A stretch of 36,737 nt of DNA. It comes from an uncultured bacterium. GTDB lineage: Bacteria; Bacillota_I; Bacilli_A; RFN20; CAG-826. Numbering within the stretch: position 1 is the stretch's first letter; each line of letters starts with the position of its first letter. The notes below the pieces were generated by a model. The model was given only the letters and a program-made list of their open reading frames with translations, was not told where the DNA came from and did not search any database. Shown one piece after another: positions 4,871-35,756 of the stretch. The translations under genes were made by a program, and so were the position numbers. The DNA is taken from positions 1 to 36,737 of the forward strand of contig CASDXP010000008.1 of assembly GCA_949285455.1 (NCBI GenBank), written 5' to 3'.

Positions 4871-4893
4871 AAAAGAGCATTAGCTCTTTTTTT
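4871..4893. terminator. Bidirectional terminator between ferredoxin and ribU
   Basis: AAAAGAGC (4871-4878) and GCTCTTTT (4883-4890) form an 8-bp stem with the loop ATTA. A T run follows on the plus strand and CTTTTC follows on the minus strand, so both convergent genes can stop here. The minus-strand loop (TAAT) contains the ribU stop codon, so the last ribU codons are written in the stem. Confidence 0.85.
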
Positions 4894-5578
4894 CTTGTTC
4901 TACTTCTTCATTTGTCGTTTTTACGATTCCTTCGATAACTTTCTTTTCTTCAGCTTTTTTTAATTTAGCTTGATGATATGCATTTGCAATTTTTTCGATT
5001 GTTCTACGCATTATTTTATAGATAAGAAGCGTAGCCACGACGACGATAGCGTCTTTTAGAGCATTGAATGGTAAAGCAATATAAAACCCATATGACCAAT
5101 CGAGATTAGTGACGTAAGGAAAAGTTTCTTGAATCATCTTCAAATCAAGACCAAATAGATATGCATAGAACGGTACAGAAACGTAAATATTAATAATTAA
5201 AGCAAAAAATAATTGTAAAACTGTTCCCACTAATAAACCTAATAACGCCCATTTAAATTTACGACGATATTTATAGATGATGACAGCAGGAATAATAAAG
5301 ACGATGGAGAGGAATAAATCCGTCAATTCCCCGACGCACATCGTCGAAGTCATTGGTAATTTAATAATTGTTTTAATAAAAATAGACGTAAGCGCCACTA
5401 GAGGGCCATAAGCAAATCCTGCGACAAAATTTGGAATTTCATCAAGGTGAATTTCTAAAAATGAAGGAGCGAATGGAACCTTAAATTGGAGGCCGGGTAC
5501 GACGTAAAGAATAGTCGCTATTGCCCCAAAAATAGCGGACCTTGTCATGAAGAGAATAATTTTGTGTGTCTTTGACAT
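4880..5578 (-). CDS. ribU: ECF transporter substrate-binding (S) protein, riboflavin type
   Basis: This 232-residue integral membrane protein has about six membrane segments and fits the ECF S-component family that captures a vitamin and docks on the shared EcfA/A'/T energy module. The order MTRSAIFGAIATILYVVPGLQF, then HLDEIPNFVAGFAYGP, then a late LPFNALKD matches RibU-like proteins. The upstream FMN riboswitch independently supports riboflavin as the ligand. A charged C-terminal tail of about 30 residues rich in Lys and Glu is cytosolic. The ribosome binding site AGGAG lies six T before the ATG and is buried in the regulatory hairpin. No ECF ATPase or T gene is in the window, as expected for a group II system. 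Confidence 0.92.
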   Translation of the reverse strand: MSKTHKIILFMTRSAIFGAIATILYVVPGLQFKVPFAPSFLEIHLDEIPNFVAGFAYGPLVALTSIFIKTIIKLPMTSTMCVGELTDLFLSIVFIIPAVIIYKYRRKFKWALLGLLVGTVLQLFFALIINIYVSVPFYAYLFGLDLKMIQETFPYVTNLDWSYGFYIALPFNALKDAIVVVATLLIYKIMRRTIEKIANAYHQAKLKKAEEKKVIEGIVKTTNEEVEQEKKS

Positions 5579-5603: not shown

Positions 5604-5620
5604 AAAAGAAGAGAAAATAT

Positions 5621-5729
5621 ACTTCTTTCATCTTGACTTTAACAATCGCCACTTGAATTGCACAAGTTCATGCTCATCTTGAGCTCGCGGGGTTTACCGC
5701 CGGTCGGAAATTACATCCTGCCCTGAAGT
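5621..5729 (-). ncRNA. FMN riboswitch (RFN element) aptamer
   Basis: On the minus strand the conserved RFN blocks occur in order. AGGGCAGGATGTAATTTCC is followed by GACCGGCGGTAAACCCCGCGA, a variable arm, and GTTAAAGTCAAGATGAAAG. The closing helix P1 pairs ACTTC (5725-5729) with GAAGT (5621-5625). The element binds flavin mononucleotide and usually turns off riboflavin synthesis or uptake when FMN is plentiful. It directly precedes the riboflavin S-component gene. Confidence 0.97.
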
Positions 5730-5735
5730 GCTTTT

Positions 5736-15807: not shown

Positions 15808-17667
15808 ATGAAAAAAAGCAAGCTTAGTTTCGGCCTCGCTTTTACACTCTTACCACTCGTCGCGGTATCAGCGTGTTCTCCCACAGTAACTCCAAGCGAT
15901 AAGGACATCGTTTCTTTTACTGATCCAAATGGTAACACTGTCAATATCCCGACTGATGAAATTTATGCAAACTACAAAATCGACAAAAATGGTGTTGAAA
16001 AATTCTACAATGCCTTAGTTGAAGTCGTAGTTCGTAATGAGATGAACAAAGAAGAATATGCGGATACGAAAGCGCATTGTGAATCTCTTGCACGCAACCG
16101 TGTCGAAGGTTCAAAAGAACAAGCGCAAAGTAACGCAGAGGCAAATGGTACATCTTATGATGAAGAATTCGAAAGCATCTTAACTTCTAACAATTGTGAA
16201 GATGAGGAAGAATTATTCAATCTCTACACTTATCAAGAGATGACAAGCGCTCTTGAAGATGAATGGTTCTCTACAGAAAAACTTTCTGAATTACTCGTCG
16301 CTAATGAAGGTTATTTTGCTACGGAGGTTCCTTATCATATCCGTCACATCTTAGTGAATGTCACTGCTTCCGTCCCAGAAGGTTTATCCATTTCTACCTC
16401 ACCATTTACTTCTCAAGAAATTACATCTTCTGAAGCCGCTAAATTATCGAACGTCGTCTCTGCTTTAGCGAGCGGTAACGAATCGTTTGGTACGATCGCA
16501 TATCGTTATAGTGACGATTCAAGCGGTGATACTTCAAGCCGTAACAATTATGGTGATGTTGGCATCATGGGTCGCTCTACTTCATTCGTCAATGAATTTA
16601 AATTAGGTATTTATACTTACGATTTACTTTATCAAAACGATGCGACACGTAGTCAAACTCTTGAAACTGCCTTAGGTTTAGATGAGATTTATCCAGATGA
16701 TGAAATCGCTACTGAATTCACTAATATGGGTTTAGATGATATTGGAACTATCCCTTATGGTGCAATTTTAAAACTTGGTCAAGTGGCTAATGTTGAAACT
16801 TCCAACAGCGGCACTCCAGTCAATAATGGCGTTACTTTATTCTATCCTAGAAACATCCTCTTCAATAAATATTTCAATAAACATAATGTTTCAATTATCA
16901 CTCCAAATGATGTCGCCGTTGCTGATGTCGACGCTAGTGGCCGTCTTACTCCTACTAGATTAAACACTGGTGAATTAATCACTGGTGAAAATTTCGCTGG
17001 CATATTTAATGAGGATTACGTCATAAATTCAAAAGGTCGTTTCCAACAAGTGGCTGCTTTAGATAATCAATATGCCTTATGCGATGAACAAGGCAATGTC
17101 ATCTTAGTGGTTCGTGCCGGTAGCGGTTACGAAGGCGTCCACTTCATGGTCGTCCAACGTAATTATTTAGACGAAGTCGTCAATGACGTCACCTTACAAG
17201 AATATTACACGACCGCTATTCCAGGTGAAGAAGCTTATCCTACCACCGCTGATGGTAAAGATAAAGCGACATACGTCAACTTCATCCGTGGTAATAACAC
17301 GACTTATAACACTCGTGCTACGCAAGTTAGAGATGCTATCATGGCTTATAATCCTTACATCACCGATGACATGTATTGGTCACTCTTCGAAGAACAAAAA
17401 GTCGTCATCCACGATGAAACCTTAGCCACTAAGATCGATGAATATCTCGAAACGCGTAAATTAGATGAAACGTTCAATCGCAATGAAACGTTCGAAGATT
17501 CTTGGGATGCTTACATCGACTTACTCAAGATTCAACAACAACTTCGTGGCGTAAACGATGATGGCGAACCAGTCAGATTAATTTCTGAAACATGCGCCGT
17601 CAAATTCCAAGAAGATCCTAACTCACCAGCCTTTGCTGAAGGAGGTATTTGTTACTATGCGCAATAA
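15808..17667 (+). CDS. prsA: PrsA-like peptidyl-prolyl isomerase lipoprotein (parvulin foldase)
   Basis: This 619-residue exported lipoprotein starts with a signal peptide (LSFGLAFTLLPLVAV) and a lipobox VSAC, with lipidation expected at C23. The parvulin domain begins HIRHILVNV (177-185) and continues to GNESFGTIAYRYSDD and GDVGIMGRS (249 onward). It should fold secreted proteins on the outer face of the membrane. At 619 residues it is twice the length of Bacillus PrsA, with a long acidic C-terminal extension of unknown role. AAGGAGG precedes the ATG. Its proximity to hit and yhaM echoes the prsA region of Bacillus. Confidence 0.85.
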   Translation: MKKSKLSFGLAFTLLPLVAVSACSPTVTPSDKDIVSFTDPNGNTVNIPTDEIYANYKIDKNGVEKFYNALVEVVVRNEMNKEEYADTKAHCESLARNRVEGSKEQAQSNAEANGTSYDEEFESILTSNNCEDEEELFNLYTYQEMTSALEDEWFSTEKLSELLVANEGYFATEVPYHIRHILVNVTASVPEGLSISTSPFTSQEITSSEAAKLSNVVSALASGNESFGTIAYRYSDDSSGDTSSRNNYGDVGIMGRSTSFVNEFKLGIYTYDLLYQNDATRSQTLETALGLDEIYPDDEIATEFTNMGLDDIGTIPYGAILKLGQVANVETSNSGTPVNNGVTLFYPRNILFNKYFNKHNVSIITPNDVAVADVDASGRLTPTRLNTGELITGENFAGIFNEDYVINSKGRFQQVAALDNQYALCDEQGNVILVVRAGSGYEGVHFMVVQRNYLDEVVNDVTLQEYYTTAIPGEEAYPTTADGKDKATYVNFIRGNNTTYNTRATQVRDAIMAYNPYITDDMYWSLFEEQKVVIHDETLATKIDEYLETRKLDETFNRNETFEDSWDAYIDLLKIQQQLRGVNDDGEPVRLISETCAVKFQEDPNSPAFAEGGICYYAQ

Positions 17668-19360
17668 GAAATTATTTGTCATCGCTGCTTTAGCAGGTGT
17701 CGTCTTAACTGGCTGTTCTGAAATAAGAGCCCATCCAGGCGATTACGATGATCCTATCTTAAATAATCCTGATGGTAGCAAAGTTGATGTTGTAAACAAC
17801 ATCGCAAGCGTCGTCTACGATGCTCTCGATGATGCTGGTACGACCAACGAACAAGTTCTTGAAACTTTAAAAGTTAGTCTTGCTGAATCGATCTTTGGCA
17901 CCGCCGAAGAACTTGAAGCAGCTTATAGTGGCGGCGCAAGTAGCGAAGCCTTCACTAACTTAAAAACTACGCATGCTTATTACACCGAAGATATCGAAGA
18001 AACTTTAAGCGAAACTGAAAAGAATGAATATTCTTTCTGGCGTCTAACTCAACTCGTCACCGAAATTCAAGACCGTATTCTCGATACGTATTATGGCCTC
18101 ATCATCGGTGGTGATTATAGTGATGATTCTTTATTTAGCGAAGAAAAATTCGCTAACTTCATCCGTAGTGAGCTTTATGAAGTAGTAGATCCTGAAACTG
18201 AAGCTTTCCCTACTACTTTCTATGAAGATGTGTTAATCACTCCAAGCAAGACTTACGAAACGATCGAATCTTGGGGAATTCATATCGATTATTATGAAGA
18301 TTACACTCGTCGTGTCATCATACCCAACATCTACATCGATTTGTTAGCGGAACAATATCTCTTCGATGAAAACTATTCATCCTTAGGGAGAAGTTACGCC
18401 CGTAAAGTCAATTACATCGCAATTACTTCTAACGATGAGTTTGCAAATGCTGCTCCTTATTTAATGCTAAATTTCATCGAACAAAACATCTTAGCGGAAG
18501 ACGCTACAGCTGAAACTGCTAATTTGGAAATACTTGCGAATGCTTGGAGAGGCTATGAAGAAGATTATCTTAAGGACGGTAATGAAACCGAATTATTAAA
18601 TCTTTCTCTCGGCGCTGGTTCTTTCCAAAACAAAACGACCCGCGCTGATGATCATGGTTCCATCTCCTATTACAGTGGTACGCAATACGGTAACATTTTA
18701 GATGATTACGATTTAATCTACGAAAATGATCCACAAAAGAATGATCAAACAGTCGAATCTGACTTCACCAATTCTTATGCTTATACGATCGAAAAAGGTC
18801 TCGAACTTAAGACGAGAACGATGCGTACGACCGATTATACGACTGATGGTTGGTTCATCCAAAACGGTGGTTTATCCACTTTACCTTCTTGGATTAGAAC
18901 TAGATTATTCAATATCGGTGTCGCTAACGCCATCGATGACATTACCGATGAAAAAGATACGAGCGTCGCTCCAGCTGACCGCATCACTTCTAACTTCGTG
19001 CGTAAGATTGATGGTTATTATTACTTATTACCACAAACGACACAAAGTGGTAGCGAAGATGTCGACTTCTTACTTTACGACAACGATTCTAAAACATATT
19101 ACATCATCCAAATTGAAGAAGCTGTCTCATCTTCCAAACTTAATCGTAATTCCCAAAATAACTACACTAACGTCCACGGCGACCATGGCGAATACATGGA
19201 AGAAGTAGCAAGAAACATCGCTGAGACTATGGCGGAAGGCGGAAGTTACGATGATCAAGCTATCCTCTTCTACTTCGAAAATATGGATTTACAATATTAC
19301 GATGAAGATCTCTACGATTACTTCGTCGAAACATTCCCAGATTTATTCGAAGAAGATTAA
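17657..19360 (+). CDS. Large acidic lipoprotein, possible PrsA/SurA-related chaperone
   Basis: This 567-residue protein has a clear lipoprotein signal (KKLFVIAALAGVVLTGC, lipidated C20). I placed the start at the ATG at 17657, after GGAGGT with a 10-base gap, giving an 11-base overlap with the preceding gene. An earlier in-frame start would add eight residues before the signal. Like its neighbour, it follows the signal with a short N-P-D/G-rich, valine-containing stretch (NNPDGSKVDVVNN) and then a helix- and Glu-rich region. I do not see the parvulin HIxHIL and GDLG-like motifs. It may be a paralogue without isomerase activity, but this is inference. Confidence 0.8.
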   Translation: MRNKKLFVIAALAGVVLTGCSEIRAHPGDYDDPILNNPDGSKVDVVNNIASVVYDALDDAGTTNEQVLETLKVSLAESIFGTAEELEAAYSGGASSEAFTNLKTTHAYYTEDIEETLSETEKNEYSFWRLTQLVTEIQDRILDTYYGLIIGGDYSDDSLFSEEKFANFIRSELYEVVDPETEAFPTTFYEDVLITPSKTYETIESWGIHIDYYEDYTRRVIIPNIYIDLLAEQYLFDENYSSLGRSYARKVNYIAITSNDEFANAAPYLMLNFIEQNILAEDATAETANLEILANAWRGYEEDYLKDGNETELLNLSLGAGSFQNKTTRADDHGSISYYSGTQYGNILDDYDLIYENDPQKNDQTVESDFTNSYAYTIEKGLELKTRTMRTTDYTTDGWFIQNGGLSTLPSWIRTRLFNIGVANAIDDITDEKDTSVAPADRITSNFVRKIDGYYYLLPQTTQSGSEDVDFLLYDNDSKTYYIIQIEEAVSSSKLNRNSQNNYTNVHGDHGEYMEEVARNIAETMAEGGSYDDQAILFYFENMDLQYYDEDLYDYFVETFPDLFEED

Positions 19361-20827: not shown

Positions 20828-21605
20828 CAAAATATTCCTCCATCAATGAATGTATAATTTTATTTGGATAGCCCTTGCGATACATACCACGATAAAATTT
20901 TTGCTTATCATCTTTCGCACTTCTTTTTTGTTTGATGGCATCAAGACGTGCTCGATTCATATCGAATGCATCGCTAAATTTAATTTTTTTCAGTTCTTCA
21001 TCAATTAAATTCATCTTAAAACCATTATTAATTAGTGCATTACGTAATTTATTTTTCGCCAACGGACCATATTTTTCATATTTAGGTTTGAGCGCATTAA
21101 TTTGTTTTAACAAATTCTTTCTTTCAATTTTTTCATCAAACGGTAAATTATCAGGGAAATAAAAAATGCGCTTTTGAGCCAATTTCTTTTCGCATTCTTT
21201 AAAAGAATATCCTTTAGATAAATAATATTCTAAATATTCTTTTCTTAAAGCAAGATTATCGAAAAGATGTCTTCTGTTATCAAGTTCGAACATAATCTTT
21301 TTAATTTGTTCTTCATTTAATCCTTCTTTTTGAGCTAGACGTTCTTTAAAATAACTTTTCGATACTTTATACTTGTTTAAATAATTAACGTACTTTCTAA
21401 TAGCGACTGAAGTTTTAGTTTCTTCTAAGATTTTTTTAAGTTCATAAGATGTCAGTGTTTTTTTGACGTAAAGGCGATTATTTAAAGTTGTTTCAAAGTC
21501 GCAAGGAAAGGTATGACCATTACTTAAATAGACCATATTAGTGGTTCTTTGCCGTTTAATTGCCGTAATTTCTATCTTACCAGTTCTTTTTAATGGCCCT
21601 TCCAT
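20820..21605 (-). CDS. recX: RecX-like regulator of RecA
   Basis: This 261-residue basic helical protein fits RecX, which modulates RecA filaments. An N-terminal beta-rich segment (KIEITAIKRQR...VYLSNG) is followed by repeats of three-helix units, including AIRKYVNYLNKYKVSKSYFKERLAQK and QKFYRGMYRKGYPNKIIHSLMEEYF, as in firmicute RecX. Length is close to that of Bacillus RecX. The gene starts 29 bases inside the upstream glycosyltransferase gene. Its binding site (GAAGG) is only three bases from the ATG, so the start could be slightly later. No recA is in the window. Confidence 0.82.
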   Translation of the reverse strand: MEGPLKRTGKIEITAIKRQRTTNMVYLSNGHTFPCDFETTLNNRLYVKKTLTSYELKKILEETKTSVAIRKYVNYLNKYKVSKSYFKERLAQKEGLNEEQIKKIMFELDNRRHLFDNLALRKEYLEYYLSKGYSFKECEKKLAQKRIFYFPDNLPFDEKIERKNLLKQINALKPKYEKYGPLAKNKLRNALINNGFKMNLIDEELKKIKFSDAFDMNRARLDAIKQKRSAKDDKQKFYRGMYRKGYPNKIIHSLMEEYFDD

Positions 21606-22761
21606 ACACCTTCTTTATCCTCTCGTAAAATTTTTCTATCGAATATTCATCCATCTTCTTGAAAGCTTCATCTTTCATCTTTTCTAATTCTTCTTCTTTC
21701 ATAAATAAAATTGTTTCTAGTTTTTTAATGAAATCATCTTCATCATAGAAGAAGAAACCATTTTTCCCACTTTCGATTAAATCATATAAATTATCGTCAT
21801 ATTTTACTAAGAGGATACGGCGCGCGGCCATAGCTTCAAGATAAGTTAAACCTTGCGTCTCTGAAGTGGAAGCAGAAACGTAAATATCGCTAAGATTATA
21901 ATAGAAACCAACTTCTTCGTTCGGCACTTTTCCTAAGAACAAAATCTCTTTTTCTAAACCAAAATTTTTAGACATATTTTTTAGTTCTTCTTCGTGCGGC
22001 CCGCTACCAACAATTAATAATTTCATCTTTTGTTCAGGATGAAGTTTACGATATTTTGCGTAATGAGAAATGACTACATCGACGCTTTTAGCTTTATCGA
22101 CTCGACCTAAGCAAAGCAACGTCACCGTATCTTTATCGATACCTAGTTCTTCTTTTTTCTTCTTCAAATTGATCTCATCTTGATTTTCAGGTAAGAAACG
22201 ATGAAAATCGATGCCTGTTGGAATAATATTTATATATGCTTCCACTCCTATTTCACGTAGATAGTTTTTAATTTTCTTAGATGGGGTAATAAATTCGTCA
22301 GCCATATCAGCAATGACTCCAACGAACCATCTAATTGCATTTTTCGCTAGGCGATCAAAATGGCCTTTGAAAAAATCACTAAAATAATAAGTATAATCCT
22401 CATACTGAGTATGGTAAGTATAAACTGCGGGCACATGTAATAAATAAGAGATTATACGACCAAAAAATCCCACTCCTAAATCTGATTGCACGTGCAATAC
22501 ATCTGGTCGAAATTTTTTGATGAATTTCGTCACTTTCGAATGGTAGAACCAAGTGAAACGATAATTGAACATATTTTTCATCACGAGGCCAGGAATACGT
22601 ACGATATCTTTTTCATAAGTAATTTCATTGCTGAATGGGTTCGTCGTAACAATTAAAACTTCGTGACCGTGTTCTTCAAAAGTTTTTTTCATGTAAAAAG
22701 TTGAAGTTGCCACTCCATTTATCTCCGGTGGATAAGTATCAGAAAAGACGACGATACGCAT
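21577..22761 (-). CDS. GT4 glycosyltransferase, probable diacylglycerol glucosyltransferase
   Basis: This 394-residue protein has the two-domain GT-B fold of family GT4. The N-terminus (RIVVFSDTYPPEINGVATS) and YTYHTQYEDYTYYF region closely resemble 1,2-diacylglycerol 3-glucosyltransferases of Acholeplasma and streptococci. The C-terminal donor site shows the E-x7-E motif in SETQGLTYLEAMA. It should work at the cytosolic face of the membrane to make glucosyl-diacylglycerol, a bilayer-shaping lipid or lipoteichoic acid anchor. The flippase-like gene upstream and shared operon support an envelope-lipid role. The exact sugar and linkage are inferred. Confidence 0.88.
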   Translation of the reverse strand: MRIVVFSDTYPPEINGVATSTFYMKKTFEEHGHEVLIVTTNPFSNEITYEKDIVRIPGLVMKNMFNYRFTWFYHSKVTKFIKKFRPDVLHVQSDLGVGFFGRIISYLLHVPAVYTYHTQYEDYTYYFSDFFKGHFDRLAKNAIRWFVGVIADMADEFITPSKKIKNYLREIGVEAYINIIPTGIDFHRFLPENQDEINLKKKKEELGIDKDTVTLLCLGRVDKAKSVDVVISHYAKYRKLHPEQKMKLLIVGSGPHEEELKNMSKNFGLEKEILFLGKVPNEEVGFYYNLSDIYVSASTSETQGLTYLEAMAARRILLVKYDDNLYDLIESGKNGFFFYDEDDFIKKLETILFMKEEELEKMKDEAFKKMDEYSIEKFYERIKKVYGRAIKKNW

Positions 22762-22776
22762 AATTACTTTTTTCCT

Positions 22777-24255
22777 CTATAACTTATTATCGATATCAAT
22801 TTCAGTGAAGCTATTTTGCTTGCTGGCTTTTTTTACTTCTTTAATCTTTTCTTTTCTTGTATCGACATAATATGCATCATCTTGGAAATTGATAATAAGT
22901 GAATTTTCATCTTCTATATTGTCCGGCGGATTTCTTCTTCTTCTCAGATGTAACTTCTCTTGTAAAGCGCGCCTAGAAAGTTGCGAAGTTTCATATTGTT
23001 TATTAGAAGACAAGCGACGTTCTTCGAACGTACGTAATTGTAGTTCCAAATATGTTTGACGAATCGATTTTTTGTCCGCTTCCATCTCCGTTGGTGTCGC
23101 ACGATAAAAAGCAGTAAAAAGACCAGCGAACAGTAATGGGACAGTATACAAAGAAAAACGCCAGATGATAAGCGATGCGTTCGTGACTGCTTGCGTGGTA
23201 TAAAAACCTGCACCCGGATTCGCATTATTGTAAAACATGACCGAGAAGAAAATTTCTGAAATGCCCGCTGTGCCAGGAAGTGGCCAGAAACCAGTACACA
23301 TCTGGTGAAAACTAGACATGAAACAAGCATCGAAGAAAGAATTAATATTCGTATTATTTAGTCCATCTAAAGCCATACCAGCAAAATAAGGAATACAATA
23401 TTTCGCCGTCATCATAATGAAACTGCAGACGATAATTAAAAGCATGAAGGGAATATTAGATTGGAGACGTCTCAATTCAATTTTAAAATTTTCCACTTGA
23501 ATTCTTAATGATTCTCTCGTCTTTTCGGGGTGTTTAACAATACGTAGTTTAGCGAACAAATTAATACCGTGTTTCATAATAAAATTATGAATATGACGGT
23601 TATAAGACATCAAAAATAAAAGGCCAATTAAAGATATGTTGATGATGAAGCCAAAGATGGCTAAAGGCCAAACAGGAATATCGACACCATTGAGATTAAA
23701 TGAACCGATCGAACTAATTAAGTCATATTTAAAGATGAACGATAAGACACCGTAAAGAATTAAGACAATTTGATAGGTAATGAAAGACATGACCATGATA
23801 CTTGCGGCGTTAGAAACAGGGACACCTTGTTTGGAAAGTGTGCGAGTTTGAAAAACTTGTTCACCTGTACCAGCCGGCAAGACACCATCGTAGAACATTC
23901 CGACGAGCTTATTCGCCATCGCTTGTCTAAACTTATAACGCCTCGTATATAATCTTGCGTAGCAAAAAACGATGAATGAATCGACGAGAAAATGAAAAAA
24001 CACGATCGCTCCGATGACGAGAATCCATCGCCAATCCGTACTTGTGAAAGCATTGACGACGTCGAAGAAAGTATTATATAGAGTTAAAGCTAAAGAACCT
24101 GCAGTTAAAAGTAAGATGATGACGATATAAATCGCATATTTAGCAATTGGTGAAACACGTTTTTTCTTACGGTTTTCTTCACCTTCCTTTAAAGCTTGCT
24201 CAACTTCAGGATCAAGCGTTTCTTCATTCATTGTCTCAATGTCTTCTTTTTTCAT
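22777..24255 (-). CDS. LPG-synthase TM / YbhN-type flippase-like membrane protein
   Basis: This 492-residue protein has about eight membrane segments between a charged N-terminal tail of about 40 residues and a charged C-terminal tail of about 100. The motif VLPAGTGEQVFQTRTL and, later, WPLPGTAGISEIFFSVMFYNN are the paired proline-glycine signatures of the MprF/YbhN membrane domain (lysylphosphatidylglycerol synthase TM region). No aminoacyl-transferase domain follows, so it is flippase-like only. Next to the GT4 gene it may move or support a glycolipid, but this is inference. The start is 15 bases beyond the next gene's boundary, with only a weak purine-rich binding site. Confidence 0.85.
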   Translation of the reverse strand: MKKEDIETMNEETLDPEVEQALKEGEENRKKKRVSPIAKYAIYIVIILLLTAGSLALTLYNTFFDVVNAFTSTDWRWILVIGAIVFFHFLVDSFIVFCYARLYTRRYKFRQAMANKLVGMFYDGVLPAGTGEQVFQTRTLSKQGVPVSNAASIMVMSFITYQIVLILYGVLSFIFKYDLISSIGSFNLNGVDIPVWPLAIFGFIINISLIGLLFLMSYNRHIHNFIMKHGINLFAKLRIVKHPEKTRESLRIQVENFKIELRRLQSNIPFMLLIIVCSFIMMTAKYCIPYFAGMALDGLNNTNINSFFDACFMSSFHQMCTGFWPLPGTAGISEIFFSVMFYNNANPGAGFYTTQAVTNASLIIWRFSLYTVPLLFAGLFTAFYRATPTEMEADKKSIRQTYLELQLRTFEERRLSSNKQYETSQLSRRALQEKLHLRRRRNPPDNIEDENSLIINFQDDAYYVDTRKEKIKEVKKASKQNSFTEIDIDNKL

Positions 24256-29192: not shown

Positions 29193-30059
29193 TTACACAC
29201 TTTTTAAAGTGACGTGAACAATTTCAGGTGGACAACGATAACGGATTTGAAATTGATTGGACATGCCGATACCGGCACTTATAAATAGAGTAGAAGTATG
29301 TTCTTCATACGTTTCAACATACATCCCACGCGTATAATGTGGAAATAAACCTTGCCCCATAATAATAGGCACACCGATGCCGACCATATTAATTTGTCCG
29401 CCATGCGTATGGCCTGAGAAAACGTAATCAAATTTATACTTTGCATAAGTCGGCATAAATTCTGGACGATGAGATAATAAAATGTTGATAGCATTTTCAT
29501 CCATAGGATGATCTTCTAACATCTTATCTAGAAAAGGCGAAACATCATCGATATTTAACCCCTCCTCCACTTTTTCTTTATAAGGGTCATGAATGCCATA
29601 GATTTGTAAAGCATTTCCTTTTATTTCTATATCGATACAATCATCTTCTAAAATGTAGACACCATAATCTAATAACAAATTTGTAAGCCCTTCCATCATC
29701 GGTGAATAATATTCATGATTACCGCGCACGTAAACGATAGGCACTTCGAACGCATCTAAGATGAGCGAGATACGATTTAAATCTTCTTCGTCGCTAAATT
29801 GGTCGATTAAATCACCTGTAAGAAAAACGATATCTTTTTCGACACCTTCAATCATTGAAATAATATTGTCATTCGGATAATCAAGATCATGATTGTGGAA
29901 ATCAGAAAGTTGTAAAATATTAATTTCTTCGTTCACTAAATGATGTTTTACTTCGTAATTTGTCATGAGTAATGTATCATCGTGTCCTAAAGCAAAAGAT
30001 AGAAAGACGCTTCCAACAACGATGAAAAAGGCTGATAAAATACGAAGGAATATTTTCAT
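29193..30059 (-). CDS. Membrane-anchored metallophosphoesterase, YkuE-like
   Basis: This 288-residue calcineurin-type phosphoesterase has an N-terminal signal anchor (LRILSAFFIVVGSVFLSFALG), so the catalytic domain probably faces outward. All metal motifs are present: SDFHNH (D53, H55), TGDLID, GNHEYY, LSHRPEF and GHTHGGQ. Relatives act on phospholipid or nucleotide-linked envelope substrates. I chose the ATG at 30059, eight bases after AAAGGTGG and overlapping the previous stop as ATGA, instead of an upstream GTG. Confidence 0.92.
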   Translation of the reverse strand: MKIFLRILSAFFIVVGSVFLSFALGHDDTLLMTNYEVKHHLVNEEINILQLSDFHNHDLDYPNDNIISMIEGVEKDIVFLTGDLIDQFSDEEDLNRISLILDAFEVPIVYVRGNHEYYSPMMEGLTNLLLDYGVYILEDDCIDIEIKGNALQIYGIHDPYKEKVEEGLNIDDVSPFLDKMLEDHPMDENAINILLSHRPEFMPTYAKYKFDYVFSGHTHGGQINMVGIGVPIIMGQGLFPHYTRGMYVETYEEHTSTLFISAGIGMSNQFQIRYRCPPEIVHVTLKSV

Positions 30060-31021
30060 TCTTTGAGCCACCTTTCTAACATCTTATCATCGATTTGGCA
30101 AGCTTTCTTCCAATCGATTGTTCGTAGTTTTTTCTTTCTATCTTCACCAGTTAATAAACTTACCTCACGTATGTCACTAACTAATATATCTTGGGCTTCT
30201 TTAGTAAGATATGGATTGTGATATCTATCTTCAATAAGATGGTAGGTGACGTTTTTGCATCCATCTAATTTTTTAATATTTTTATAAGCATATCTCACAT
30301 TTATAACATCATCTTTTAATCCATGGATAACTTTGAATTTAATATCTTTATTTTTCTTCATAGTTTTAGATGCACTTGTGAAAAGAAATCGTGGATGAAT
30401 AAATAATTCTTTTATCAATAATAAAACTGCCACAAAAGCATTTTTCTTACCGATGAAATCAAATAAGAATCTTTCATCATTAAATGGAGCGAAAGCAATG
30501 ACTTCTTTTACTACTTCTTTAGGGAAAGTTAAAAGAGCGTTGATAATTGAATATGCACCATAAGAATGTCCCAACAAAGTTATTTTTTTATCTTTTAAAT
30601 TAGGTTCAACTTTTAAAAAGTTAAGATAAATATCTTTCAATATGATTGCCCCTTGGCTCATACCCTTAAAATTTTTACCACCGCTTTGACCCATACCATA
30701 CATATCAAAAGTTAAAACGATGTAACCTAACTCACATAAAGAATTAATTAAAGAAGTATAGGCAAGATGACCTGCCCCAATTCCGTGTGCGAACAATAGA
30801 TAACCTCGATCATTTTTCTTTCCTTCATATCTTGCAGCAAAAATGCTTACTTTCTTATAAGGAAAGGTAAAATAACTAACGCTTAAATTTGGATAATCAC
30901 TCGCATCTTCATAAACAAAATCTTCGACGTAATTAAATCTTGGAAGTTTTGAAGAAATTAAAATTATTAAGATGGCGATGAATAATGGGATTAGCAAAAG
31001 TAAAAACCAAAGATATATCAT
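30056..31021 (-). CDS. Membrane-anchored alpha/beta hydrolase
   Basis: This 321-residue protein starts with a strong hydrophobic segment (YLWFLLLLIPLFIAILIILI), then a serine-hydrolase domain. FAHGIGAGH is the oxyanion region. GHSYGAYS holds the nucleophilic serine. HGLKDDVI and DRYHNPY fit the acid and histidine of the triad. It may act on an envelope lipid or ester; the substrate is unknown. The ATG at 31021 has no Shine-Dalgarno sequence. TATAAT on the minus strand (31033-31038) ends 11 bases upstream, so the leader would be only about four bases. An in-frame TTG two codons earlier is also possible. Confidence 0.85.
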   Translation of the reverse strand: MIYLWFLLLLIPLFIAILIILISSKLPRFNYVEDFVYEDASDYPNLSVSYFTFPYKKVSIFAARYEGKKNDRGYLLFAHGIGAGHLAYTSLINSLCELGYIVLTFDMYGMGQSGGKNFKGMSQGAIILKDIYLNFLKVEPNLKDKKITLLGHSYGAYSIINALLTFPKEVVKEVIAFAPFNDERFLFDFIGKKNAFVAVLLLIKELFIHPRFLFTSASKTMKKNKDIKFKVIHGLKDDVINVRYAYKNIKKLDGCKNVTYHLIEDRYHNPYLTKEAQDILVSDIREVSLLTGEDRKKKLRTIDWKKACQIDDKMLERWLKE

Positions 31022-31090
31022 AATCAATAAGTATTATAACGTTAATACGAGAATAAAAAACGATGATTTTTATTCTTTAGTATTTTAGTT

Positions 31091-31105: not shown

Positions 31106-32035
31106 ATGATGAACGCATTAACTAATAAGATTGCAAGAACTTATCCAGAAGTCAAAAAGCGTGTTTTTGAAGTCGACTTCTTACGTGGCTTATGTATTCT
31201 TTTAATGATTCTTGATCACTTCTTTTACGATTGGTGTGGTTTAATGCCTGCTATCTTCGGCCCGATTAACGAACCAGAATGGTTAGTAACGTTACATGAT
31301 TTTGCTTTATTTTGGTGGAACTGGGATGTTAGAACTATCACGCGTTTTATCATCGTCGCTCTCTTTTTCTTTTTAAGTGGCATCTCCACTTCCTTTTCTA
31401 GGTCAAATATTAAAAGAGGTAGTATCTATTTCACGATTGGTGTTCTAATTTCTTGCATCACTTTCGATATCTCCCAACTGACAAATGGCTTTCAAATCGC
31501 GATGATCGTCAACACTATTTTTACTTTTGGACTCGCTACTTTAATATTTGGTATCTTCGAATATTTATTTAAAAAATTTATTAAAAATAAATTAGCGTTT
31601 ACTATCACCTCTACCGCTATCGGAATCGCTATTATTATCATCGGCTATACAAGTCCAACTTTTTTTGACAACACCGCCACTCTTGAAGTATTAAATTTCC
31701 CTAATTTGATGAGGGCTATATTTGGCTATGGAAGATTTGCTAACCAAGCGGATTACATGCCTTTATTACCTTATCTAGGTTTCATCTTCTTAGGTGCAGC
31801 TTTCGCTTCTATTTTCTACGCTAAAAAGCAATCGTTACTGCAACCATTGTTCGATAAATTTAATCATCGGCCAAAAGATTACCTCGATAATGTCGTATGG
31901 TTTCCAATAAAAATTGGTAAAGGCATTTCTTTCGTCGGAAAATATGCTTTCTTAACTTATATTATTCATCAAGGTGTGCTCATCATCATTTGTGTAATCA
32001 TTATGCTTTCATTAGGATATAGTTTAAATATATGA
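31106..32035 (+). CDS. Membrane acyltransferase, HGSNAT/DUF1624-like
   Basis: This 309-residue protein has about seven membrane segments. The N-terminal RVFEVDFLRGLCILLMILDHF motif, then FFLSGISTSFSRSNIKRG, match the catalytic region of the heparan-alpha-glucosaminide N-acetyltransferase family (PF07786). In bacteria these proteins acylate sugars or lipid-linked glycans at the membrane. Two ATG codons stand side by side at the start. The stop overlaps the next gene as ATGA, so the ligase is translationally coupled. The acyl donor and target are not known. Confidence 0.85.
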   Translation: MMNALTNKIARTYPEVKKRVFEVDFLRGLCILLMILDHFFYDWCGLMPAIFGPINEPEWLVTLHDFALFWWNWDVRTITRFIIVALFFFLSGISTSFSRSNIKRGSIYFTIGVLISCITFDISQLTNGFQIAMIVNTIFTFGLATLIFGIFEYLFKKFIKNKLAFTITSTAIGIAIIIIGYTSPTFFDNTATLEVLNFPNLMRAIFGYGRFANQADYMPLLPYLGFIFLGAAFASIFYAKKQSLLQPLFDKFNHRPKDYLDNVVWFPIKIGKGISFVGKYAFLTYIIHQGVLIIICVIIMLSLGYSLNI

Positions 32036-33651
32036 GAAAAAATTACGAACTGACAATGTATATGGCCTTGAGACGAAGTGCACTTCAATATCCCAAATAT
32101 CGTGCCTTAAATTTTGAAGGACGCTTCATCAATTATCGCACTCTTCTTAAAAAGATTGATCTATATGCTTCTAACATCAAAAAATATCATCTTGATGAAA
32201 AAGGTGTCGTCACTTTATGTTTGCCTAACGTCCTTGACGCTATTTACTTACTTTATGCCTTCAATAAATTAGGAGTAAAATTAAGTCTAGTTCACCCTTT
32301 GATGAATGCTTCTATCTTGAAGAAGACGATGGAAAAAACTTCTTCTCACGTCGTCTTTCTCTTAGATACGATGTATTTAAAATTTAAACATCTTGAAGAT
32401 GATAAAAACTATAAAATAGAAATCATTCCTTGTGACGTCAAAAAAGATTTAAGCATTTTTAAAGCATTAGGTTACCAATTCATCAATCGCAAGAAATTAA
32501 AATATTCTTCTTCTTTAACAACTTCGCATCTCGCTAAAGGAAAAATAGAAACCACACCAGTGGATGAAGATATTTATAACGATCGCTTCTATTTACAATC
32601 AGGCGGTACGTCTGGAACGTCTAAAACGATTGCCTTAAGCAATCTTAACATTAATTCCAATGTGAGATTTTTCTTCGATCGTTTAAGTTTAGATACTCCT
32701 AAAAATAAATACATGCTCGCTGTCTTACCAATGTTTCATGCTTTCGGCTTATGTATGGGCATTCACGTCGCTTTGTATTTCGGTGGCTGCGACATGCTCA
32801 TGCCAAAATTTTCTAGTAAGAAAACGATCAAATTGATGAAACAAAAACATCTTTCTTTCATCATTGGCATTCCCTTGCTTTATTTAAAACTCATCAAGGA
32901 TAAGCATTTTGATGGAAGACATTTGAAATCGCTTAACGTCTGCTTCGTCGGAGGCGATTTCGTAGATGAAAAGATTATCGAAACTTTTAATAAAACATGC
33001 GCAAAACGCCACTCGATGGGTCGATTATACGTCGGTTATGGTCTCACTGAAGCAAGCGGTGTCGTCGCTTTAAATACGCACGCTGATCATCAAGATTTTA
33101 CGGTAGGGAAACTATTAGATAATATCGATGTGCTCATCAAAGATACAAATACGAATAAGATATTAAGCGATGGAGAAGATGGCAAAATTTATCTTAGTGG
33201 CGAAACATTGATGAACCATTATTTAAATAACGAAAATGATGAGGTATTCGTCGTTCACGATGGTAAAAAATTTTTTGATACTGGTGATTTTGGTCACGTG
33301 AGCAAAGATCGTTTCTTAGTTTTTAAACAAAGAGTGAAAAATATTATCAAAGTCAAAGGCATTAACGTTTTCCCTCAAGAAATAGAACAAGTTTTAAAAA
33401 GTGATGATACCATCTACGATTGCAAAGCAATCGCTGTTAAAGACGATGAATTTTCTCATAAAATTGTCTTATTTATCGTTCTAAATAAGAATACTAATAA
33501 AACAATAAGCGAAAAAGAAATAAGAACACTTGTCGATGAAAAATGTGGAAGGTATTCTTCCCCTCACATCATTAAATTCATCGATAAACTTCCTTATACG
33601 AATATTGGTAAAGTTGATATTTTAAAGCTTGAAGAAATGTTAAAAGATTAA
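32032..33651 (+). CDS. AMP-forming acyl-CoA synthetase / acyl ligase family
   Basis: This 539-residue ANL-superfamily enzyme activates an acid as its adenylate. Motifs seen are the phosphate loop SGGTSGTSKT (instead of the usual SSGTTGxPKG form), LPMFHAFGLCMG, VGYGLTEASG, FDTGDFGHV, KNIIKVKGINVFPQEIE, and the C-terminal catalytic lysine region TNIGKVD. Length is normal. It is coupled to the membrane acyltransferase gene, so the two may supply and transfer an acyl group. This is inference from context. A strong terminator follows. Confidence 0.9.
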   Translation: MRKNYELTMYMALRRSALQYPKYRALNFEGRFINYRTLLKKIDLYASNIKKYHLDEKGVVTLCLPNVLDAIYLLYAFNKLGVKLSLVHPLMNASILKKTMEKTSSHVVFLLDTMYLKFKHLEDDKNYKIEIIPCDVKKDLSIFKALGYQFINRKKLKYSSSLTTSHLAKGKIETTPVDEDIYNDRFYLQSGGTSGTSKTIALSNLNINSNVRFFFDRLSLDTPKNKYMLAVLPMFHAFGLCMGIHVALYFGGCDMLMPKFSSKKTIKLMKQKHLSFIIGIPLLYLKLIKDKHFDGRHLKSLNVCFVGGDFVDEKIIETFNKTCAKRHSMGRLYVGYGLTEASGVVALNTHADHQDFTVGKLLDNIDVLIKDTNTNKILSDGEDGKIYLSGETLMNHYLNNENDEVFVVHDGKKFFDTGDFGHVSKDRFLVFKQRVKNIIKVKGINVFPQEIEQVLKSDDTIYDCKAIAVKDDEFSHKIVLFIVLNKNTNKTISEKEIRTLVDEKCGRYSSPHIIKFIDKLPYTNIGKVDILKLEEMLKD

Positions 33652-34460: not shown

Positions 34461-35756
34461 TTAAAATTCTAAACTATTATCGTTCAATAAAAAATCCTTT
34501 ATTCCCATAACTAGATATCCTTTTTCATTTCTTCTTGGCTTCATACTTTGAGCAACTACAATAATTTTTTTAAAGGAATCATCTGTTTTATCAAATGATC
34601 TAGTTTCTTTTGCCAACTTTCCTTCGCTTACTATCTCATATGCTGACTGTATGTAATATCTATTACTGCCCTTATTGGCGATAAAATCAATTTCGTATTG
34701 ACGTTTTGTTCTACTTCCATCTTCTTTTTTTTCAAAAACTTCAACGACACCTACATCTACATTAAAGCCGCGATATCTAAGTTCATTATAGATAATATTT
34801 TCCATAGTATGTGTTTGTTCAAGTTGCCTAAAATTAAGTCGAGCGTTTCTTAAACCAATATCTTCAAAATAAATTTTAAAAGGAGTATTTATATATTTTT
34901 TTCTTTTAACATCATATCTTTTAGCTAAGCTTATTAAAAATGCTTCTTGTAGATACTCAATGTAACTAGAAATAGTATTAACAGATATTGATGCATTTTT
35001 TACACTTTTAAATGTATTAACCAATTTAGGTGGGTTAACTAATGTAGAAATTCCAGAAGCTAAAATATCTAAAAGTTCACCTATATTTTCATCATTGTTT
35101 AAGTGATATCTAGTAACGATATCTTTTAAATAAACATTTTTCATTTGACTTTGTAAATAGTTTAGTTTTTGCTCATCATTTTTCATAGAACATAGCGCTG
35201 GTAATCCTCCATAAAGAGAATACTCATCTAATGCATCTTCTTTACTTCCATTAAAAGCAGCGAAAAACTCACTAAACGCTAATGGCATTACATGAATTTC
35301 GTCTCCTCGTCCTTCAAATTCAGTAATAATATCGCTAGATAAAAATTTTGAATTACTGCCAGTTACATAAACATCTAGATTTGGCTTTCTTAAATAACCA
35401 TTAAGCACTGCTTCAAAGTTTCCTAAATTTTGTACTTCATCTAACAATAAGTAATACATATTATCATCTTTAATTTTCATCGATATATAATCCATAAATT
35501 TTTTTGGATTAACTCTTCTTCCTTCAATATCAAGTTCAATTAAATTTTCACCAATGAGGTCTAAATCATCGCCAGAATCAAACGCAAATCTAATAATATG
35601 ATCCGGAAATATTCCTTCGTTTATTAAATGCTTATAAAATATGTTATTTAATAAGTAAGATTTTCCACATCTTCTAATTCCCGTTATAATCTTTATTAAT
35701 CCATTGTGTTTTCTATCAATTAATTTATTTAAATATTTCTCTCTTTTAATTTCCAT
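34461..35756 (-). CDS. AAA ATPase with DUF4143 domain, accessory
   Basis: This 431-residue protein belongs to the ATPase family with an N-terminal AAA_14-like domain and a C-terminal DUF4143 domain. Walker A is GIRRCGKS (26-33) and Walker B is YYLLLDEVQN (D106, E107). VTGSNSKFLSSDI holds the sensor-like segment. The C-terminal half with FEDIGLRNARLNFRQL and EIDFIANKG, a nuclease-fold-like pattern, is typical of DUF4143. Function is unknown and such genes are common in variable regions of gut bacteria. I chose the ATG at 35756 because GGAGGT lies seven bases upstream. An earlier in-frame start would run through a 40-bp dyad. It stands alone with long gaps on both sides. Confidence 0.88.
   Translation of the reverse strand: MEIKREKYLNKLIDRKHNGLIKIITGIRRCGKSYLLNNIFYKHLINEGIFPDHIIRFAFDSGDDLDLIGENLIELDIEGRRVNPKKFMDYISMKIKDDNMYYLLLDEVQNLGNFEAVLNGYLRKPNLDVYVTGSNSKFLSSDIITEFEGRGDEIHVMPLAFSEFFAAFNGSKEDALDEYSLYGGLPALCSMKNDEQKLNYLQSQMKNVYLKDIVTRYHLNNDENIGELLDILASGISTLVNPPKLVNTFKSVKNASISVNTISSYIEYLQEAFLISLAKRYDVKRKKYINTPFKIYFEDIGLRNARLNFRQLEQTHTMENIIYNELRYRGFNVDVGVVEVFEKKEDGSRTKRQYEIDFIANKGSNRYYIQSAYEIVSEGKLAKETRSFDKTDDSFKKIIVVAQSMKPRRNEKGYLVMGIKDFLLNDNSLEF

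Follow-up and report, generated by a model that had tools for sequence, protein, structure and literature searches.

In the Dlt system, the AMP-forming ligase DltA feeds the membrane acyltransferase DltB, a member of the MBOAT family, and the envelope is modified as a result. The gene pair described here followed the same logic, an AMP-forming ligase together with a membrane acyltransferase, although the protein families differed: by profile and fold the acyltransferase was a TmAT protein and not an MBOAT, and the ligase was FadD-like, in contrast to the D-alanine ligase of Dlt. MBOAT and TmAT are treated as separate in the available portion of PMC12423673. The acyltransferase resembled the HGSNAT/TmAT superfamily (HGSNAT, AT3 proteins such as OafB and OatA, and GWT1/PIGW) in its fold, its HGSNAT_cat domain and its DxxR, FxxxxG and TMH9-Tyr motifs, yet unlike those systems it was tied to an acyl ligase of its own. 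The ligase in turn resembled FadD-type long-chain-fatty-acid-CoA ligases in its motifs, domain order and TGGTTG-like loop; unlike FadD, the paired ligases formed a separate clade linked to the acyltransferase, with Thr, Ile, Val or Ser in place of the Gly that follows the loop lysine. A further likeness was to the sets of enzymes that modify lipoprotein N-termini (LhaT/PcrB/YvoF, LnsAB and Lit), in that lit followed the pair in one sublineage, whereas those pathways are described without a CoA ligase in the part of PMC12345273 that was available. The original prediction had known of no described two-gene pathway of this form, and none was present among the open-access literature matches listed, which came from partly broad queries. 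Each half of the pair was of a known kind; their combination, and its setting in bacteria that seem to lack fatty-acid synthesis, were absent among those matches.

The two genes lay on the forward strand of the window, the whole 36,737-nucleotide stretch of DNA analyzed here, which is contig C8 of a 1.1 Mb, 97% complete genome (G000) of an uncultured bacterium. The HGSNAT-type (TmAT superfamily) membrane acyltransferase occupied positions 31106..32035 (+) and encoded 309 aa, and the FadD-like AMP-forming acyl ligase occupied 32032..33651 (+) and encoded 539 aa. Both ORFs were confirmed as originally delimited, together with the ATGA overlap between the acyltransferase stop and the ligase start, read directly from the sequence at 32032..32035 (+), which presumably couples the translation of the two genes. 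A scan for promoters and terminators gave promoter-like sites no more frequent than in shuffled sequence (10 found, 18.3 expected). No carrier-protein gene of the kind found in Dlt directly followed the ligase, and no ORF of at least 60 aa lay between the ligase and position 34461 of the window. Divergent from the pair were genes for a metallophosphoesterase and an alpha/beta hydrolase (29193-31027, -), which adjoined it within the genus (L062, L063, and L073) and were absent beside the other mapped loci.

Several other features of the window were recorded. An FMN riboswitch (5616-5734, -; Rfam RF00050, 91.2 bits) was located upstream of the substrate component of an ECF transporter (4880-5578, -), which probably serves riboflavin uptake. 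A GT4 glycosyltransferase adjoined a flippase-like LPG-synthase-TM protein (21577-24255, -), possibly as a glycolipid or export pair. Two large ORFs of 619 and 575 aa occupied 15808-19360 (+); in Pfam, the latter was unmatched and the former gave no more than a weak match to peptidyl-prolyl isomerase.

The acyltransferase matched the Pfam family HGSNAT_cat (PF07786) at 1.6e-14, with 54.5 bits against a cut-off of 22, while its match to Acyl_transf_3 (7.4e-06) fell below the cut-off. All 33 aligned sequences of the acyltransferase family matched HGSNAT_cat (E 0.001); D24, H38, G92, D216, and Y285 were invariant among them, and R27, F87, R104, and G230 were present in at least 90%. DxxR, FxxxxG, a Gly in TMH6 and a Tyr in TMH9 together make up the acyl-CoA site conserved across the TmAT superfamily, and DxxRx10H is the AT3-type variant, HGSNAT carrying an Asn at that position of TMH1, according to the available portion of PMC12423673. 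In the window's protein, these motifs were present as DxxR (D24, R27), FxxxxG (F87 to G92) and Tyr (Y285), with a putative assignment of these residues to TMH1, TMH2 and TMH9. The Asn specific to HGSNAT proper was replaced by His38 in a DxxRx10H pattern, so that the protein differed from human HGSNAT in this AT3-type His as well as in being shorter. The pattern, with Arg or Lys allowed, was found in 52 of 52 acyltransferases, and His38 is the likely catalytic residue.

The structure predicted for the acyltransferase from an alignment of 28 sequences had a pLDDT of 86.6. In the fold search, the model matched HGSNAT entries with Z from 11.7 to 9.6 (best 227 aligned residues, 4.3 A), followed by GWT1 (Z 8.6) and GWT1 with palmitoyl-CoA (Z 8.3), and the next unrelated row was at 4.4. 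Helical proteins at Z below about 13 may share a mere arrangement of helices; the TmAT fold was nevertheless accepted, because the gap to the next row, the profile match and the motifs agreed. The HGSNAT-like membrane acyltransferase of the original prediction stood on profile, motifs and fold alike. A short acyl group would be possible, since several of the matched HGSNAT entries carry acetyl-CoA. No match was obtained in a sequence search of the PDB with the single protein, a profile search of the PDB gave chance rows only, and a plasmid search for the acyltransferase had no match.

The ligase was likewise borne out as an AMP-forming enzyme, matching AMP-binding (4.8e-46) and AMP-binding_C (1e-09) above the Pfam cut-offs with its catalytic motifs kept. 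The features expected of an ANL enzyme were all found, namely the AMP-binding and C-terminal domains, the P-loop (SGGTSGTSKT), GYGLTE (335-340), TGD (417-419), the Arg (R434) and the predicted catalytic Lys (K527). Among 30 aligned ligases, that of the window included, G335-E340, D419, R434, and K527 were invariant, and T417 and G418 occurred in at least 90%. The phosphate loop had been called unusual; it was present, yet ordinary, the corresponding loop of E. coli K-12 FadD being TGGTTGVAKG, and the comparison with E. coli FadD and with the other ligases in a 58-row tree ruled this peculiarity out. Among 43 paired ligases, the residue following the loop lysine was Thr in 30, Ile, Val or Ser in 12 and Gly in none, with the pattern unmatched in one; in one of the 12 (L078), the loop lysine itself was replaced by Arg.

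Among the best 25 of 96 NCBIfam matches, the models closest to the ligase were long-chain-fatty-acid-CoA ligases, all far below their cut-offs, the best being NF004114 with 235.6 bits against a cut-off of 766. Because no cut-off for a long-chain-fatty-acid-CoA ligase was reached, the protein was filed as FadD-like and not as FadD, with which (E. coli) it shared 23% identity over 535 columns. The fold search returned CoA ligases of many acids, with MenE and MatB first and fatty-acyl ligases tied or slightly lower, and for this reason the fold does not choose the acid. From its sequence, the ligase is most likely derived from FadD.

Co-occurrence in genomes, which had been proposed as a check of the pairing, was examined in a sample consisting of the pair's own genome and 57 relatives from its order. 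The acyltransferase was found in 30 of these 58 genomes, and a strong ligase accompanied it in 29 of the 30 against none of the 28 without it (Fisher p 2e-15, uncorrected for kinship). Strong ligases were those with E < 1e-60, a line chosen after seeing a gap from 4.8e-68 to 1.9e-32; at a looser E of 0.001, the ligase query matched 38 of the 58 genomes, but the extra matches were weaker and fell on AMP-binding genes other than this ligase or on portions of larger frames. Of the 29 strong-ligase genomes, all but G015 and G044 (27 in total) had the two genes adjacent on the same strand, with the acyltransferase first. A query of genome contigs with the single protein returned 11 close relatives. 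The genes flanking the pair varied between lineages while the pair persisted, and no third gene recurred across all lineages among the mapped loci.

An even draw of 392 genomes from the phylum contained the acyltransferase (E 1e-10) in 47, which belonged to families f1 and f3 of the same order and f31 of the same class. A ligase match was found directly downstream on the same strand in 40 of the 47, within 40 bases in 36 and within 293 in the rest. The ligase profile matched 65 of the 392 genomes at E 1e-80, and the lone ligases, from families f16, f17, f20, f21, and f26, scored lower. Ten of them were fetched, and none had the acyltransferase beside it; nine entered the tree, where each fell outside the paired clade, and the frame of the tenth was broken by TGA codons. 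The ligase matches in two f16 genomes, L192 (G397) and G415, contained three in-frame TGA codons each, and TGA may be read as an amino acid there. Generic FadD genes in families f21, f17, and f20 of the same class (L193, L194, and L195) adjoined a gene of about 250-300 aa, which we take to resemble an E2/CAT-type acyltransferase, possibly forming another ligase-acyltransferase neighborhood.

Trees were built after leaving out near-duplicates and fragments (L062, L063, L065, L068, L069, L072, L102, L103, and L153), as well as ligases below 350 bits and acyltransferases below 150 bits against profiles made for this analysis. The ligase tree held 58 rows and took E. coli FadD as its root; one clade (SH-aLRT 96) united 43 paired with 4 unpaired ligases, separate from ten generic FadD rows. 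Path distances in the acyltransferase and ligase trees were correlated over the 43 pairs (r 0.78), and none of 5000 permutations gave a value as high. With PlsX as a control in 22 genomes, the acyltransferase-ligase correlation was 0.71, those of the two genes with PlsX were 0.15 and 0.08, respectively, and a partial r of 0.71 was obtained; in 20 genomes, with G018 and G049 omitted from the partial Mantel test as their PlsX looked divergent, the respective values were 0.75, 0.31, 0.17, and 0.75. Neither partial r was reached in 5000 permutations. The control was useful rather than strong, because the PlsX tree was poorly resolved, 9 of its 19 inner branches being open. When the pair was mapped onto a PlsX tree of 42 genomes, its presence changed 11 times on the best tree, with 4 changes forced by starred branches. 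An independent-pairs test took genomes with both genes (22) or with neither (20), and its 4/4 concordance was therefore built in, so that information comes from the count of changes alone. The original suggestion that the two genes belong together was upheld by co-occurrence, adjacency and matched trees, and the pair is a genuine conserved two-gene unit, the pairing being far beyond chance.

In both pair trees, G052 (family f3) fell among f1 genomes and G049 (f5) next to G042 (f3), whereas the PlsX tree grouped G042 with G035 and G052 with G022. The simplest reading of these discordant placements is that the pair was transferred horizontally as a unit, and it has probably been shared in this way between lineages.

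Nine of the 52 acyltransferases in the tree had no adjacent strong ligase. Four of these belonged to genus code g13: in G015, the ligase beside the acyltransferase (L099:9218-10744) was badly diverged, had lost the P-loop and scored 123 bits, which by its sequence marks a decaying or repurposed copy, and in G294, G330, and G370 the ligase beside the acyltransferase was absent. All four genomes carried a generic FadD elsewhere, the copies of G294, G330, and G370 being 71-74% identical to that of G015, and this lineage appears to substitute the generic FadD for the paired ligase. Among the remaining exceptions, G239, G296, and G044 had, at another place in the genome, a ligase that belonged to the clade or branched at its base, and G024 had a stand-alone AMP-binding frame of 496 aa; G256 had a strong ligase nowhere in the genome and only a weaker AMP-binding frame. 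The presence of such FadD-like or AMP-binding genes elsewhere suggests a dependence of the acyltransferase on a FadD-like donor enzyme within the same cell, encoded as a rule beside it.

The ketoacyl-synthase (FAS II condensing) family had no match in the pair's own genome and was likewise unmatched in 53 of the 58 genomes in all; it matched in 5, at full length only in G017. PlsX was found in 56 of the 58 genomes and DegV/FakB in 57, with matches to both in the pair's own genome. Because PlsX and DegV/FakB matches were present in a genome with no FAS II condensing match, phospholipids are probably built there from scavenged acids via acyl-phosphate. At E 1e-15, the same genome had two AMP-binding genes, the paired ligase and a 674-aa protein fused to a phosphopantetheine carrier domain (L101:5446-7470, G000 contig 17). 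Frames sized like this fusion recurred in several relatives.

The core of the mechanism proposed here is that an acyl-CoA-type transferase has a dedicated acyl-CoA ligase next to it, although the phospholipids of the cell should not require acyl-CoA. On balance, the pair is probably a stand-alone module for acyl activation and export, which would bring a scavenged fatty acid by way of acyl-CoA to a predicted extracytoplasmic acceptor. The ligase would adenylate a free carboxylic acid and then, on the inner side of the membrane, join it to CoA as a thioester; the acid would most likely be a fatty acid of medium or long chain that the cell has scavenged. The acyltransferase, with its TmAT fold, would take up the acyl-CoA in a membrane pore and pass the acyl chain to an acceptor on the outer side, with His38 as the likely catalytic residue. 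In this scheme, we infer that acyl-CoA is handed from ligase to acyltransferase, that the acyl group is fatty and that the reaction has its acceptor on the extracytoplasmic side. The folds and conserved residues of both proteins fit the originally suggested activation of an acyl group followed by its transfer to an envelope acceptor. Activity of the ligase as a fatty-acid CoA ligase would not speak against the pair, because a FadD-derived ligase would feed a membrane transferase dependent on fatty acyl-CoA.

The neighboring genes offered leads to the acceptor. The order acyltransferase-ligase-Lit was found in six loci (L067-L072) and in G317, G353, G354, and G371, all from one sublineage, two of the loci (L072 and L069) coinciding with the contigs of G317 and G354; Lit was identified with Pfam on the L067 protein and at the other loci by cluster or by a Lit search. 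In one g25 locus, a PAP2 phosphatase gene (Pfam, one protein) was directly upstream of the acyltransferase, and an O-antigen-ligase-like gene (Wzy_C) was third upstream in 3 of 4 f31 loci (Pfam on one, the rest by cluster). A link between PAP2 and Lit was ruled out, as the gene preceding Lit in G029 and G241 grouped with flavin oxidoreductases; it is presumably thioredoxin-reductase-like. Lit was also considered as an obligatory third partner and rejected, being rare (7 of the 58 genomes, and 7 of 38 over the cut-off in a further Lit search).

The third position of lit in the operon is a weak hint at a lipoprotein acceptor, and the pair might then acylate lipoprotein N-termini in place of the known Firmicute enzymes, as a special case of the activation and export proposed above. 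A precedent exists in B. anthracis, where lit sits behind lhaT, the gene for a lipoprotein N-acetyltransferase, in an lhaT-lit operon (PMC12345273, in the part available), and of these enzymes DUF1405 (the LhaT family) was found in 0 of the 58 genomes and Lit was as rare as given above. Since Lit adjoined the pair in one sublineage only, and since its exclusion with the acyltransferase was not significant (6 of 58 acyltransferase-bearing against 8 of 34 other order members, p 0.13), we consider this special case improbable. An acid other than a fatty acid (short-chain, dicarboxylic or aromatic) would fit the HGSNAT entries as best structural matches of the acyltransferase and the MenE, MatB and similar CoA ligases that headed the fold rows of the ligase; any acid missing from the CoA pool would require a dedicated ligase, and the O-antigen-ligase-like gene upstream in f31 would suit an acyltransferase that decorates a surface glycan. 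The ligase was nonetheless nearest to FadD models (among the best 25 of 96) and stood beside the class-wide FadD in the tree, genus g13 appears to make do with a generic FadD, and GWT1, solved with palmitoyl-CoA, also matched the acyltransferase model, all of which makes the non-fatty acid unlikely.

In a further reading, the ligase would serve ordinary fatty-acid salvage, feeding phospholipid synthesis beside an unrelated membrane gene. A FadD-like ligase in a genome without a FAS II condensing-family match speaks for salvage, but this reading is largely countered by the conserved pairing and the matched trees, and PlsX and DegV/FakB would supply an acyl-phosphate route. Moreover, genomes without the acyltransferase need phospholipids too, yet none of the 28 had a strong ligase and 15 of them had no AMP-binding gene at all at E 1e-15. 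Salvage is accordingly regarded as very unlikely, and activation of a scavenged fatty acid and its transfer across the membrane is the preferred reading.

A more specific form of the preferred reading is possible, though we advance it only tentatively. Long chains from scavenged fatty acids may be moved to an extracytoplasmic acceptor, for example lipoprotein N-termini or an envelope glycolipid, by a horizontally shared ligase-TmAT cassette, so that acyl-CoA would be used beside the acyl-phosphate route in bacteria that have lost fatty-acid synthesis. The question concerns small-genome uncultured bacteria which, in this sample, have hardly any fatty-acid condensing enzyme, and for which the use of scavenged fatty acids and the make-up of the cell coat are at stake. 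It also concerns the TmAT superfamily, as no link between a TmAT acyltransferase and a dedicated donor-making enzyme appeared among the literature matches listed. If true, the ligase-TmAT cassette would give bacteria a counterpart to the lipid acylation of the GWT1 type.
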